Of a DNA stretch of 64,000 bases, positions 6,122 through 46,028 are shown piece by piece. The notes under the pieces were generated by a model. It was given only the letters and a program-made list of their open reading frames with translations, searched no databases and was not told the DNA's origin. The DNA lies in the NCBI RefSeq assembly GCF_900156875.1, contig NZ_LT707409.1, forward strand, positions 3,369,435 through 3,433,434. The letters run 5' to 3'. The position numbers and the translations under genes were made by a program. Within the stretch, counting starts at the first letter, position 1; every line of letters starts with the position of its first letter. This DNA comes from Robertmurraya dakarensis (GTDB lineage: Bacteria > Bacillota > Bacilli > Bacillales > Cytobacillaceae).

Positions 6122-6261
6122 ATTGGGCCTCCTCTTAAACTATATTTATATATTTATGAATATTGAGAAAATTCATATTAATATTATCCACAGAAAGCGA
6201 TCAGAAATCAAGGGAAATTCAAAAAAACTTTCTTAAAAAAATTGTCTAATTTTGCTTAGAA

Positions 6262-40638: not shown

Positions 40639-41934
40639 CTATATTTTAAACCTTGTAATCGTGTTTTTAAGCTGCTCTGCCTGACCTTTCAAATCTAAAG
40701 CTAACTTTTCCACATTCTCGATTACCCCTGCCTGATGATTGGTCGCTGTCGTCACCTCTTGCGCCCCAGCAGATGTCTCTTCTGCAATCGCAGCAACTTC
40801 CTGGGATTGTGTAGAGGTATGTTGAATGCTCTCCATTTGTTTATCCACAAGGGTTGTGATTTTCATAACAGAATCAGCCATTTCATGTACACTCTTCGTC
40901 ATCTCTTCAATCACTTCATTCGTCTTCGACCCTTTTTTCGCTTCATTGTTGGCAGAATCCACTTGTTCTGAGATTTGCTTGACAACATTACGTACCTCAG
41001 TTTGAATATTTTGAATGAGCTCCGAGATGCCTTGAACGGCTTTAGCACTTTCATCGGCCAGCTTGCGGACTTCTTCGGCTACGACCGCAAAGCCCTTCCC
41101 ATGCTCTCCTGCCCTCGCCGCTTCAATCGAAGCATTGAGTGCGAGAAGATTCGTTTGTGCAGCAATATCACCAACAAGCCCAATAATCTGCTCGACCTTT
41201 GCCGCATTTTCCTCTAACTTTTTTACAGTCTGCAGCGATTGCTCATTATCCGCCGCTAGCTTTTGAATACCAGATACTAATGAGTGTATGACATTTTTTG
41301 ATTGCTTAAGATCCTCTACCATTTCTTTTGACACCATTCCAGAAGTTTTAGCTGTTTCCTGTACTTCTTCTGCAATGCGGATGACATCTTCCACCGATTC
41401 TGCTGTTTCTTGGATAGAAACAGCGGAGTTGTCTGCACCAAGAGAAATTTCACTAATGGTTCTTGCAATCGCTTCCGCTTGTTCTGCTGCGGCTGTCGAT
41501 TCATTCGATATGGCGATCACTTTGTCATTTGTTTCACGGAAGTTCTCGTCAATTTTTTGAACCATTTCTCTAATATTATAAAGCATATGATTAAAGGCAA
41601 TCCCGAGCGAACGAATCTCATCATCTGATTTTGGCAGTTCAACGTCTTCACTAATATCACCATTTGCTGCCTTTAATGCTGCTTTTTCAAGCTTTTGGAG
41701 AGGTCTAATAATAAACCCGGCAGCAAGGAAGGCCAGCACGCCAGACCAAATGATTCCCATCAATAGCGTGAGGACCGTAAAAGCTGCCTCACTCATCGGT
41801 ATTGAGCCCTTTATATTTGGATAAATAAAATAGATAAACAGCGCACTTGTCGAATACGTAATCACCGCAAGTATCGTAATAAACAAGACAAGTTTCTTTC
41901 TAAGTCCAAATTTCAATCCTTTCGTTTCCTCCAT
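40639..41934 (-). CDS. Methyl-accepting chemotaxis protein without extracellular sensor domain
   Basis: 431 residues. Two membrane spans (~14-37 and ~52-76) flank a loop of only ~15 residues, so there is no ligand-binding domain. A HAMP domain (~75-130) is followed by the signalling coiled coil, whose tip contains [21 protein letters not shown]. It may sense membrane or cytoplasmic state rather than an external ligand. ATG at 41934 follows GGGAGG at 5 bases; a further in-frame start upstream overlaps ywlE and is rejected. It lies between ywlE and rpiB, an insertion relative to B. subtilis. Confidence 0.9.
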
Positions 41935-41944
41935 GTTTTCCTCC

Positions 41945-42397
41945 CTAGCTGTCACCAGCTTTTTCTATCTTTTTTATGATTTTATCGATTATGTCATGAA
42001 GCTCTTTGTATGTTTGCCGGTATAATTCAAGAGGTCCGCCGAATGGATCACTAATATCACCATAAGAATCACCTTCTGCAAACTCTTTCAATGTAAAGGT
42101 TTTTCCTGCTGCCATTGGAAACATATTGTTAATTGAATCCTTATGACTCCATGTCATTGTCAATATGTACGTTGCCCAATTTACACTCTCTTCCGTCAAC
42201 ATTGAAGATCGATGGTCATGGGTGATGTTTTGTTCTTTTAATACGGTTTGAGTATGCTGTGATGCTGATGCTCCATTTGCAGCAAATACTCCTGCCGACT
42301 TCACTTCAATCCCTGGAATCCCCTTGCTTTTTAAAATCGCTTCGGCCATCGGACTGCGGCATGTATTCCCCGTACAAACAAATAAAATTCGGATCAT
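41945..42397 (-). CDS. ywlE: Low-molecular-weight protein phosphatase, protein-arginine phosphatase type
   Basis: 150 residues. P-loop CTGNTCRS (residues 7-14) is the C(X)5R catalytic motif with the Thr in CTGNT that favours phospho-arginine in YwlE-type enzymes, and a general-acid Asp lies in [10 protein letters not shown]. YwlE counters McsB kinase in stress control. It lies upstream of a chemoreceptor, 10 bp away. Confidence 0.9.
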
Positions 42398-42620: not shown

Positions 42621-43178
42621 TTAAAACAACAGGAGTAATTTCACACCAAATGCCATTAAAATACTTCCGCCAAGTGCTTCACTATATGTACCAAGCCATC
42701 CTTGCACTCTCCTGCCGATTAGAAGGCCCAGCCAAGTTAACAGACATGCCCCGGCGCCAAAGCATAAAAGTACTAAAGCGGTCTTGGCTCCGTAAATCCC
42801 AAGTGTTAGGCCGACAGAGAAGCTGTCAAGACTTACGCTTATCGAGAATGCCAATAGACCAAATCCCACAGGAGTAATGAGAGCACCTTCATCTTCTTTC
42901 CTGAAGCTTGACCATATCATTTGCACTCCTAGTATGATTAACAACACTCCCCCGACATAAGCGGCAAATGTCCCAAATTGCTCAGAAAGAAACCGTCCGG
43001 CAATAATCCCGAGCAGCGGCATAAAAATGTGAAATAATCCTATTGTTAAGCCAATCTTAAATATTTCCCTGAGGCGCAGTCGGAACATTCCCATTCCCAG
43101 ACCAACTGAAAATGCATCCATCCCTAGTGCAAACGCCATTAGTATTAGTGTTAGTAACTCGCCGATTATCGATGACAT
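42621..43178 (-). CDS. mntP: Manganese efflux pump MntP
   Basis: 185 residues, six membrane spans. The conserved acidic pairs MDAFSVGL (~20-27) and LDSFSVGL (~116-123) identify the MntP family. Exports Mn2+. It is ywlD in B. subtilis order. The 152-bp upstream region contains a GGTACC half-repeat; I see no yybP-ykoY type manganese riboswitch. Confidence 0.92.
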
Positions 43179-43297
43179 CCTTCGCGCCTCCCTAAACTTG
43201 CTAATTCAGCATATGCAAGTCCAACAGCGTTTAGAAGTCAAACATATCGCACAAACAGCCAATTCTAACCCAGCAAATGTCCACCCGAAAAAGACAC

Positions 43298-43321
43298 TGT
43301 CCACGACCGGTACCAGGTACC
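43298..43321 (+). repeat. Half copy of the GGTACC repeat
   Basis: TGTCCACG, three bases, GGTACCAGGTACC, as at 25707-25730, here between ywlC and mntP. It ends 10 bp before the ywlC stop. Confidence 0.75.
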
Positions 43322-43330
43322 TAAATTTAC

Positions 43331-44374
43331 TTATTCGATAACTTTATGGCCTGCGGCTTTGAGGAGGCGGTTCATGATGGCGTCGCCAACTCCTTCAGAT
43401 GGGAAGGTTTCGCTGAGGATCAGATCTACATCCGTATTATTGAAGCTTCGCAGCGCTTCATAGAGATGAGCTGCCACTGTTTCAAGCTCTGCCCTTCGTC
43501 CACATGCATAGACGACATCAGCATCATAGTACGCCTTATTTTCTTCCGTCGTCAGCACGCCAACCGAAAGGCCTTCCCGCCTTTTTTCATTTATGATCTC
43601 CTGCAACTCTTCACGTCCGCGCTTTACTAAATAAAGAGGGGCATCTGGAGCATAGTGCGTATACTTCATCCCCGGAGACTTCGGCGCTTCCTTCGATTTT
43701 AATAAAGCAGGATCGACTCCAACCTCTCCTACTACTTCTTGAAGCTGTTCCTTCGTTACACCGCCTGGTCTTAAAATGACTGGAATGTCTTCCGTACAAT
43801 CAATAACCGTTGATTCCACTCCAATTCCGGTTGGCCCCCCGTCAACAATCCCAGCAATCCTTCCGTTCAAATCCTCCCACACATGCTGAGCCGTTGTAGG
43901 GCTGGGCCGGCCCGAACGATTGGCACTCGGTGCTGCAATCGGGAGCCCCGATTCTTGCAGAATCGCTAAAGCGACCGGATGATCCGGCATTCTAACGGCA
44001 ACTGTGGATAACCCGGCTGTTGCAACATCCGACAATGCCCCTTCCTTTTTGTTAAAAATAATCGTCAACGCCCCTGGCCAAAAGGCCTCCATTAATTTAG
44101 CTGCTTTTTGAGGAACTTCCTGTACAAACTCCTCAATTTGTTCCATCTTACCAATGTGGATAATGAGTGGATTATCACTTGGACGTCCCTTCGCTTCAAA
44201 AATTTTCGAAACGGCTCCATCATTTTCAGCATTTCCACCTAATCCATACACCGTTTCTGTTGGAAAAGCTATTACTTCATTCTCTCTTAAAAGGTCAGCA
44301 GCCTGTGAAACTTGTGGATAGAGCTCTCGTTTGTCCACAGTTTTATCCACTGACCATCTTTTAGTTTCCATCAT
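43331..44374 (-). CDS. ywlC: L-threonylcarbamoyladenylate synthase (Sua5/YwlC)
   Basis: 347 residues. N-terminal Sua5/YciO/YrdC domain (~15-200) with FPTETVYGLGGNA and KGRPSDNPLIIHI, and a C-terminal Sua5 domain after residue ~220 (SPGMKYTHYAPDAPLYLV). It makes the TC-AMP intermediate for the t6A37 tRNA modification. The start codon region lies within a DnaA-box cluster. Confidence 0.95.
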   Translation of the reverse strand: MMETKRWSVDKTVDKRELYPQVSQAADLLRENEVIAFPTETVYGLGGNAENDGAVSKIFEAKGRPSDNPLIIHIGKMEQIEEFVQEVPQKAAKLMEAFWPGALTIIFNKKEGALSDVATAGLSTVAVRMPDHPVALAILQESGLPIAAPSANRSGRPSPTTAQHVWEDLNGRIAGIVDGGPTGIGVESTVIDCTEDIPVILRPGGVTKEQLQEVVGEVGVDPALLKSKEAPKSPGMKYTHYAPDAPLYLVKRGREELQEIINEKRREGLSVGVLTTEENKAYYDADVVYACGRRAELETVAAHLYEALRSFNNTDVDLILSETFPSEGVGDAIMNRLLKAAGHKVIE

Positions 44375-44574
44375 TGTCCACCTTCGCTATTTATACTCAT
44401 ATTACCTATGAAAGTATAAAAGAAGATGTTAGCGAACTCAAGTGTTATCCACAAAACGTGAATAACTTTCTTGAAAAAGTGGATAACTTCTCAATTTTAT
44501 CCACATTATTATAAATTTAGCATTAGAAATACAGAGTTATCCACAGTTAACAAATGATTCCCGTGTGTGGACAA
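44313..44574. promoter_or_regulatory. DnaA-box cluster spanning ywlC-ywlB
   Basis: Nine 9-mers match TTATNCACA with at most one mismatch in 262 bp. Three are perfect TTATCCACA (44445, 44497, 44537). One-mismatch boxes lie at 44313 (minus), 44331, 44343, 44457 (minus), 44478 (minus) and 44566 (minus). The same locus is one of the known DnaA-box clusters near ywlC in B. subtilis, which titrate DnaA and restrain initiation. Three boxes lie inside the ywlC start region and two within the ywlB 3' end. Confidence 0.88.
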
Positions 44575-44952
44575 AGATATCCCCTCTGGTAAATCTTCCT
44601 TATCCGTCTTCACAAAACCTAATGCCATAAAAAACGGCAGTGATGCTTCTTTATTAGTAGCTAAATAAAGGGTTTCCAATTGTTTATCTCTCGCCAGCAC
44701 AAGCATTTGTTCAAGCATGAGTAATAGATCTTTTTCACTCGTCCTGCTCGTCATCACCAATGACCTTAACAGCCCAATCTCTCCCAATGGTTCGATCCCC
44801 AGCGTCGCACGAATGCTGCCATCTTCATTCTCTAATAGTAAAAAATAATCAATAAATTCCTCCACACCTGCTGTCTCTAATCTTGCTTCAGTTAAAAAAG
44901 AGAGCAATCTCTGTTTATCAAGAGCCTCGGCACAGCGAATCGTTGATTCCAT
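44509..44952 (-). CDS. ywlB: GNAT-family N-acetyltransferase YwlB
   Basis: About 147 residues, GNAT fold. Visible are IGLLRSLVMTSRT and the acetyl-CoA-binding beta4-alpha3 segment, FFMALGFVKTDKEDL near the C terminus. Acceptor unknown; B. subtilis YwlB lies in the same place. ATG at 44952 (MESTIRC) has GGAGGG 7 bases upstream; an ATG five codons earlier overlaps that site. Confidence 0.82.
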   Translation of the reverse strand: MESTIRCAEALDKQRLLSFLTEARLETAGVEEFIDYFLLLENEDGSIRATLGIEPLGEIGLLRSLVMTSRTSEKDLLLMLEQMLVLARDKQLETLYLATNKEASLPFFMALGFVKTDKEDLPEGISLSTHGNHLLTVDNSVFLMLNL

Positions 44953-45065
44953 CCAATATCCCTCCATACGAAAATTAAAGTTATTCTATTAATATGAAAA
45001 GATAGAGAAAGTAGAACTTAATAGACTAGTTTTTTAAAAAATACTGTATTACTTTGCTAGAAATA

Positions 45066-45098
45066 AAAAAACCTCGCAGGGGGAGCAAGGCTTTTGGC
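45066..45098 (-). terminator. spoIIR terminator
   Basis: GCCTTGC / GCGAGG(T) stem with a C-rich loop and a run of seven T on the minus strand, ~37 bp after the spoIIR stop. Confidence 0.85.
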
Positions 45099-45134
45099 AT
45101 AATCTAGGTTCAACACCTATCAGAGATTTTTAAT

Positions 45135-45845
45135 TTATCCAAATATTTTTTGAAAGATTTCTACTAGAAAAAACTTCACTTTAACAGATTCTTCATCTTC
45201 TTTGACATAAACAGGAGGCTGCTCTTCCTTTTCTTCTTTATCTTCTTTTTCCTCTTTACTGTCATTCTCTTCCTTACTATCTTCTTTCTCTTTCTCTTCC
45301 TTTTGCTCCTCTTCTTCGTCAAAGCCTTCGCTGACTGCAACTCCATTTGAAAAATCTAAGAAACACAGCGGTGGAAATAAGACACACCACCAATTGGCGC
45401 CTTTCCCTTCACCCAAGGTGATCAAAATTGCTTCGTACTCACCTGCTGGATATAAGAATTCACCATATAGCTTTGTCGGAAACTGAACTGTTCCAAATTG
45501 AGATTGTACACTTTGTTGAACACCCTGTTGTTCTAGTACTTCTTGAGCTATTTTTTGAATTTCCGGGATTTTTGCTCTAAGTAGATTTCTAGCATCTTCT
45601 ACAGAAGTTAACTCTTCCACCCATTTTGTGATTTCTGCATTGACTGCATCTCTTACCTGTCTCTTAATCTCCTGATCCTGCGAACTGTCACTGTTAGCTA
45701 AAATTCTTAGTCTAATCGCTTCGTTCGGGATCACCTGCACATCATTAGCTGTTACTTCATTTTTCGGTATATATAAACTTAAAATCGTTCCAATCGATAA
45801 AATTAAAATGTATAAGGCCGCAAACGTTTTTGTTTTAATTTTCAT
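45135..45845 (-). CDS. spoIIR: Stage II sporulation protein R, with long acidic C-terminal tail
   Basis: 236 residues: signal or anchor segment (~7-27), conserved SpoIIR domain (~38-170; AIRLRILANSDSSQDQEIKR, NWWCVLFPPLCFLDF) and a Glu/Lys/Asp-rich low-complexity tail (~175-220). SpoIIR is made in the forespore and exported to trigger SpoIIGA cleavage of pro-sigma-E in the mother cell. A sigma-F-type promoter lies upstream. The tail is unusual and may be species-specific. Confidence 0.95.
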   Translation of the reverse strand: MKIKTKTFAALYILILSIGTILSLYIPKNEVTANDVQVIPNEAIRLRILANSDSSQDQEIKRQVRDAVNAEITKWVEELTSVEDARNLLRAKIPEIQKIAQEVLEQQGVQQSVQSQFGTVQFPTKLYGEFLYPAGEYEAILITLGEGKGANWWCVLFPPLCFLDFSNGVAVSEGFDEEEEQKEEKEKEDSKEENDSKEEKEDKEEKEEQPPVYVKEDEESVKVKFFLVEIFQKIFG

Positions 45846-45871
45846 GTCTTTGACACCGTCCCTTCACCACT

Positions 45872-45901
45872 CATTGTGGACAGGACGAGAGAATCTTAAA
45901 C
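45872..45901 (-). promoter_or_regulatory. Sigma-F promoter of spoIIR
   Basis: Minus strand GTTTA (45897-45901), 15-bp spacer, GTCCACAATG (45872-45881). Same spacing and same GTnnAnnATG variant of the -10 as before spoIIQ. spoIIR is a known sigma-F gene. Confidence 0.6.
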
Positions 45902-45961
45902 TATTAAATTTAAAAATTTTTTCATGCAGCTCTGTTAAATTATATTTCTGAAAAACCTGCA

Positions 45962-46028
45962 AGGTGATGAACCTTTCCACATGCTGTTAAACACTCACAA
46001 TAAAGGCACGTTCCAAGGCCCATCACCT
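45962..46028. repeat. Structured interspersed repeat, copy A
   Basis: Core 45972-46018 reads CCTTTCCACATGCTGTTA, a variable loop, AATAAAGGCACGTTCCAAGG on the plus strand. It is closed by CCTT/AAGG and then by AGGTGATG / CATCACCT (45962-45969, 46021-46028), an 8-bp perfect outer stem. It lies between prmC and spoIIR. Copies B and C share the core but not the outer stem sequence. Confidence 0.8.

Follow-up and report, generated by a model that had tools for sequence, protein, structure and literature searches.

The window, that is, the whole 64-kb stretch of DNA that was analyzed (G000:C11:3369435-3433434, from a genome of 5.48 Mb), contains the gene ywlC, which starts with an ATG at position 44374 on the minus strand and whose product matched TIGR00057 with 225.9 bits (cut-off, 123.2) as well as PF01300 and PF03481. 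The adjoining gene, which from its position we take to be ywlB, gave no Pfam match for its product, and a match to an ArsN2 acetyltransferase was weak and below the cut-off; the SpoIIR gene comes next beyond ywlB, upstream of it. On the same grounds we assume mntP, ywlE, rpiB, and ywlG at this locus, and the neighborhood is presumably largely collinear with that of B. subtilis (prfA-prmC-spoIIR-ywlB-ywlC-mntP-ywlE-rpiB-ywlG-glyA-upp), except that ywlE and rpiB are separated by a chemotaxis-receptor gene. Judged by eye, this is a methyl-accepting chemotaxis-type gene at positions 40639 to 41955.

Between positions 44313 and 44574 are nine DnaA boxes, of which three are perfect and six nearly so (Table 1). 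The perfect ones match TTATCCACA, and five of the others deviate from it by one mismatch. Read from the letters, the ninth, TTATTCACG, is one mismatch from TTATNCACA and two from TTATCCACA, and the nine boxes of the original prediction are correct under its own TTATNCACA motif. It had overlooked two more perfect boxes, both inside ywlC (44003 and 44155), with which the cluster extends over 572 bp (44003 to 44574) and comprises five perfect boxes and 10 with at most one mismatch. The box at 6184, which it gave as its example of perfect boxes elsewhere, is one of seven in the window, together with those at 40841, 44003, 44155, 44445, 44497, and 44537. A terminator-like match at 44312 to 44340 is simply due to two DnaA boxes of ywlC in inverted orientation. 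When two perfect boxes 5 bp apart were sought, no instance turned up.

Table 1. Genes, likely promoter, and DnaA boxes at the ywlC locus (coordinates within the window; recurrence counted in loci of the order).
Feature	Coordinates	Strand	Position from ywlC ATG	Mismatches to TTATCCACA	Remarks
ywlC, Sua5/TsaC-type L-threonylcarbamoyladenylate synthase (t6A pathway), 347 aa	43331..44374	-			TIGR00057, PF01300, PF03481
DnaA box in ywlC	44003..44011	-	+363	0	Codons LST; same position in 13/114 loci
DnaA box in ywlC	44155..44163	-	+211	0	Same position in 40/114 loci
DnaA box CTATCCACA in ywlC	44313..44321	-	+53	1	Codons YPQ; same position in 67/114 loci, 24 families
DnaA box TTGTCCACA in ywlC	44331..44339	+	+35	1	Codons VDK; same position in 43/114 loci, 18 families
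DnaA box TTATCCACT in ywlC	44343..44351	+	+23	1	Codons VDK; same position in 91/114 loci, 37 families
Likely ywlC promoter	44413..44441	-			-35 TTGAGT, 17 bp, -10 TATACT; -35 begins 3 bp after box 4
DnaA box, box 4 of conserved upstream module	44445..44453	+	-79	0	
DnaA box TTATTCACG, box 3 of module	44457..44465	-	-91	2	12 bp to box 4, likewise in 65/114 loci
DnaA box TTATCCACT, box 2 of module	44478..44486	-	-112	1	33 bp to box 4, likewise in 62/114 loci
DnaA box in ywlB-ywlC spacer	44497..44505	+	-131	0	
ywlB, 152 aa	44509..44967	-			Name from position
DnaA box in ywlB 3' end	44537..44545	+	-171	0	Codons TVDN
DnaA box TTGTCCACA in ywlB 3' end	44566..44574	-	-200	1	

The whole genome (5,481,671 bp) contains 63 perfect boxes and 1,678 with at most one mismatch, compared with 51 and 1,401, respectively, for the reversed pattern. 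Under a uniform Poisson model that ignores base composition, the five perfect boxes seen in 543 bp at ywlC compare with 0.006 expected, and the 10 with at most one mismatch in 572 bp with 0.18. In the genome-wide list of all 63 perfect boxes, inspected by eye, ywlC tied with oriC for the most perfect boxes in 600 bp (five each), followed by a group at C10:715.9 kb with four and the others with one or two. When one mismatch was allowed, the best 600 bp held 10 boxes at oriC, 10 at ywlC, nine at rlmH/yyzF, eight at C10:716 kb, seven at tsaD, and four at yqeG, a ranking among the eight stretches fetched around groups of perfect boxes. The density claimed for the cluster, far above the genome background, is thus borne out. 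The array lies near the origin (dnaA at C11:3595449 and the ywlC start at C11:3413808, ca. 182 kb apart) and does not itself qualify as oriC; an oriC-like array sits beside dnaA at C11:3.595 Mb.

The ywlC regions compared comprised 72 loci (L001 to L072) out of 150 listed places, the best-scoring part of 396 matches, picked to spread over genera, together with loci from 40 of 63 genomes of a second set, 40 of 112 of the same class, and 20 of 88 of the same phylum. One further locus, the single usable one of four from a contig scan (L081), was placed in family f1 by hand. The 114 loci of the order represent 46 of its 47 families (f34, in which the gene is split, was left out). The array was considered present when at least three boxes with at most one mismatch fell within -500 to +400 of the ywlC ATG. 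By this measure, it was found in 110 of the order's 114 loci (45 of the 46 families sampled), with a mean of 8.1 boxes, whereas a control window at +1500 to +2400 of the same loci reached three boxes in none, with a mean of 0.35. A chance cluster specific to one lineage is ruled out by this retention. Within the order, the array was absent from L098, L105, L109, and L110. Other orders of the class had it in 22 of 40 loci (including L154, a 34% match that is perhaps not an orthologue and was dropped from the tree), and loci from elsewhere in the phylum in 0 of 20. By families, it was kept in 65 of the 80 sampled, with 45 of 46 inside the order and 20 of 34 in the rest of the class.

These counts treat loci singly, and shared ancestry was allowed for on a YwlC tree built without the box codons, where the array was present in 132 of 153 rows with 10 changes, gain and loss not being distinguishable. 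The array would have arisen near the ancestor of the class and then been lost in places; its loss in four of 114 loci within the order and in 18 of the 40 from other orders indicates that it is dispensable. Among the titles and abstracts searched, none dealt with conservation of the ywlC cluster throughout the class (Okumura 2012 and Ishikawa 2007 may report it in near relatives), and, as far as the literature searched goes, the conserved geometry and the codon constraint appear to be undescribed.

The boxes at +23, +35, and +53 recur at fixed codons of ywlC, encoding VD[KN], VD[KN], and YP[QH], respectively. Val9 is GTG in 99 of 105 cases, against 707 of 2,621 (27%) elsewhere in the same genes, with a family mean of 0.88 over 43 families. 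Similarly, Pro20 is CCA in 76 of 83 cases (509 of 1,562 elsewhere in the same genes), Val13 is GTG in 47 of 58 (389 of 1,428), and Asp10 is GAT in 87 of 91 (background, 72%). At the box at +211, Val72 is GTC in 46 of 94 cases (background, 21%). Ser123 is TCC in 20 of 42 (12%), and Thr124 shows no clear excess of ACA (46 of 102 against 38%). Control positions F37, P38, N68, P69, and L70 had no codon excess like that at the box codons, and the other N-terminal valines 34, 35, 42, and 55 were GTG in 27 of 88, 24 of 95, 23 of 114, and 35 of 90 cases; as a counter-observation, Val23, outside the box codons, is also GTG-rich (9 of 15). Six loci have a non-GTG codon for Val9 (L068, L092, L098, L101, L104, and L124), five of them without a box there. 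The trend was weaker in the 40 loci from other orders (Val9 GTG in 13 of 20 against 39%; Val13 GTG in 12 of 13). Judging from this codon usage, the boxes in the ywlC frame dictate codon choice. Array retention, codon choice, and the control window together argue strongly for selection on the sites, as had been claimed from the single locus.

Coding boxes at +79 were compared with those at +35, +53, +42, and +32 in the 112 of 154 loci that have at least one such box. Ten of the 12 loci with the +79 box lack the others, against six of the 100 without it (Fisher p 8e-9 on raw counts); compensation is not established, since the tree holds only five changes and two supported independent pairs. No joint change of upstream boxes and VD residues was seen on the tree either (of six pairs, 1.5 went the same way and 1.0 the opposite).

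Upstream of the gene, boxes keep fixed spacings of 12, 21, and 12 bp. The pairs recurring in the 114 loci are 12 bp (+-) in 65, 33 bp (+-) in 62, 21 bp (++) in 51, and 12 bp (++) in 45. Boxes 2, 3, and 4 at 21 and 12 bp occur together in 46 loci (16 families), as in G000 when the TTATTCACG box is counted, and all four boxes in 25; boxes 2-3-4 appeared in 0 of 2,280 mononucleotide shuffles. Among the 40 loci from other orders, the 12-bp +- pair was found in nine, boxes 2-3-4 in one, and all four in none.

The likely promoter is no evidence by itself, the locus having one promoter-like site against 2.5 in shuffles. The promoter score alone was also dropped as weak support (≥9.5 in 38% of loci versus 23% of shuffles; ≥10 in 11% versus 9%), and a -35 scoring at least 4/6 was present at the expected offset in just 16% of the 102 loci that could be anchored on box 4. 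In these 102 loci, TANNNT starts at offsets of 35, 36, 37, and 38 bp, counted from where box 4 begins, in 36, 8, 24, and 6, respectively, versus 0 to 8 at any other offset from 20 to 74, and their consensus has TAnA-type letters at offset 35. By eye, L073, L001, L010, L024, and L043 read CTTGnG/T and then TTCT(T/A)(T/C)TATACTTT at the place of the promoter. The distance from box 4 to the ATG ranges from 31 to 272 bp, so that the spacing between the promoter and the coding boxes varies. With the -10 fixed relative to box 4 and the ATG at a variable distance, the module is locked to the promoter and not to the start codon. Box positions at the ywlC codons and promoter are also kept where no adjoining ywlB homologue was found (e.g., L003 and L018 to L022). 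The conserved location of the array is therefore explained first by ywlC and its promoter, through fixed codons and a fixed promoter distance. The original prediction had argued for selection on location from a cluster that stayed in place despite rearrangement, a weak argument given that the locus is presumably mostly collinear with that of B. subtilis.

The ywlC array corresponds to the DnaA-binding region that lies between ywlB and ywlC in B. subtilis, and its kind is already known. Region 6 of that species, upstream of ywlC and downstream of ywlB with nine sites, shares with it the gene pair, a number of about nine boxes, and the place at the ywlB end and ywlC start, and differs only by organism (PMC4447404). 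What the present analysis adds are the fixed codons, spacings, and promoter phasing measured across the class, which the available portion of PMC4447404 did not contain. The original prediction thus correctly placed a DnaA-box cluster where B. subtilis has one, and its further statement that this cluster limits initiation has to be narrowed, that effect belonging to six B. subtilis clusters deleted together, with a strong phenotype only then (PMC5295017, available part).

In the explanation that we consider probable, the array serves as a control element that is occupied by DnaA, repressing ywlC and, being near oriC, also tying up DnaA. DnaA would load on the upstream boxes 2-3-4 (21 and 12 bp apart) and on the boxes in the first 60 bp of ywlC, and its presence on both sides would keep RNA polymerase off the ywlC promoter; with 3 bp between the end of box 4 and the -35, DnaA bound there would crowd the polymerase. 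Thereby ywlC, and with it t6A synthesis, would be repressed at high free DnaA and relieved once DnaA is drawn away. Located ca. 180 kb from oriC, the array would be duplicated soon after initiation and add to the DnaA-binding pool. The boxes, their fixed positions, the codon constraint, and the promoter phasing were computed here, and binding and repression come from work on B. subtilis. There, as far as the accessible parts of these papers go, the ywlC sites have a Kd of 0.25 µM with ATP-DnaA and DnaA "appears to directly repress" ywlC (PMC4447404), and PywlC-lacZ with the fragment from -240 to +73 goes down when DnaA is raised about twofold (PMC12112137). This fragment spans the region of the conserved module, and the decrease fits repression, as does the promoter phasing measured here. 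We infer the same DnaA binding and repression in this organism, as well as the two-sided occlusion and the share of titration.

In G000, boxes are also grouped at oriC, upstream of mnmE (L074), after tsaD (L076), upstream of yqeG (L077), and at rlmH/yyzF (L078). Another cluster, of eight boxes (L075:7878-8051, at C10:715.9 kb), lies in a 1-kb gap between a gene for a LysR-type regulator and a TIGR01777 gene, and we know of no B. subtilis counterpart that could be named for it. The oriC, mnmE, tsaD, yqeG, and rlmH sites are DnaA-binding regions in B. subtilis (PMC4447404, available part), where the last four correspond to the clusters trmE(mnmE)/jag, gcp(tsaD)/ydiF, yqeG/sda, and yydA(rlmH)/yyzF, and in G000 each of these four has boxes in a matching gene context. 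The spacing differs from locus to locus, e.g., steps of 22 and 9 bp after tsaD, where the array follows the gene instead of occupying a promoter. Each of the arrays at tsaD, mnmE, yqeG, and rlmH (L165 to L194, L195 to L224, L245 to L274, and L275 to L304, respectively) showed its own recurring spacings, and upstream of yqeG a + box followed by a - box 15 bp apart recurs.

Titration might instead come first, the cluster being one of several oriC-proximal DnaA sinks and its effect on ywlC a by-product, an alternative that we regard as rather unlikely. It agrees with the early initiation of B. subtilis after deletion of the six clusters, partly relieved by one re-inserted cluster (PMC5295017, available part), and with the word "sequester" in what is accessible of PMC11019786. 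Most of 30 genomes have at least three boxes at the other sites as well (tsaD in 26, mnmE in 27, yqeG in 23, and rlmH in 23, compared with 28 for ywlC, in windows of differing size), and the tsaD array is off any promoter. Furthermore, ywlC is near oriC in all measurable genomes, at 124 to 301 kb from mnmE, which adjoins oriC, in 13 of the 13 (of 30) with both genes on one contig without wrapping. However, a sink requires a number of boxes, not fixed codons, 12/21/12 spacings, or a phased promoter, and the strong phenotype took all six deletions.

Losses were not uniform. The genome G422 (family f50, 7.3 Mb; L129, L192, L222, L272, L304, and L323) has zero or one box at ywlC, tsaD, mnmE, yqeG, and rlmH, and keeps eight upstream of dnaA although all five non-oriC arrays were lost together. 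In G036, the ywlC array is absent and the tsaD array kept, while G099, G078, and G135 have kept that of ywlC and lack that of tsaD. Clusters can thus vanish one by one or together. A changed DnaA specificity was rejected as the cause of the losses, since 13 of 15 array-less genomes readable upstream of dnaA still have at least eight boxes (at most one mismatch) upstream of dnaA, the two exceptions being G410 and G466 with four and two; this count leaves out G036, G013, G468, and G399 (which begin at dnaA), G402 (contig end), and G440. Four genomes without the ywlC array (L332, L316, L326, and L315, from families f62, f63, f75, and f76) have 16 to 18 boxes upstream of dnaA, and eight readable array-bearing genomes have 9 to 11.

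E. coli datA and DARS1/2 are likewise chromosomal arrays of DnaA boxes outside oriC, and they affect initiation (PMC5295017, available part). It seems very improbable that the ywlC array is of that type, its fixed geometry assembling a DnaA complex that changes the nucleotide state of DnaA. The geometry does exceed the needs of a sink, and a 2026 review describes the regulators of the DnaA-ATP/ADP balance in B. subtilis as unknown and datA/DARS as absent; however, promoter phasing is a simpler reason for the geometry, and datA, which promotes DnaA-ATP hydrolysis, requires IHF, absent from B. subtilis (PMC13220808, as far as accessible). Hardly credible is the absence of any DNA site, with a conserved protein N-terminus, an RNA leader, or a hairpin matching the box by accident: boxes +211 and +363 do lie in a well conserved protein stretch and the inverted +35/+53 pair scored as terminator-like, but synonymous choice is driven towards the box, the upstream boxes are outside the gene, and an RNA element or hairpin is ruled out by an Rfam search of 43000 to 46000 without a match at E ≤ 1 and by the unpaired boxes (+35 alone in 12 of 114 loci, +53 alone in 36, and both in 31), from which the hairpin is not kept.

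Returning to the DnaA-occupied control element, a fixed-geometry site kept in 65 of the 80 sampled families does something that matters, and an array at the promoter and in the coding sequence of the gene is present in most of the related families checked, beyond B. subtilis. The role of single clusters in that species has been left open, and DnaA sites outside oriC are treated species by species in the literature available. As codons, spacing, and promoter phasing are all fixed, the effect of spacing on ywlC control or initiation timing could be cleanly separated from that of box number. It is possible, although we rather doubt it, that one fixed switch has placed t6A synthesis under DnaA control across the class since about its ancestor and that the boxes wrote part of the YwlC N-terminus. 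If so, the parts written by boxes would be VDK/VDN, VDK/VDN, and YPQ, a box could arise at +79 upon loss of +35/+53, adding Trp-Ile (ALWIK for the AAELL type), and selection would act on the DNA site rather than on the enzyme. In that case tsaD, another t6A gene with such an array, would join the same link between replication and translation. Apart from the intact tsaD at C10:198021, G000 has extra tsaB-like copies with a truncated tsaD (the first 83 of 314 positions) at C10:184334-185663 and C11:2641055-2642384, a partial duplication or an assembly artefact.
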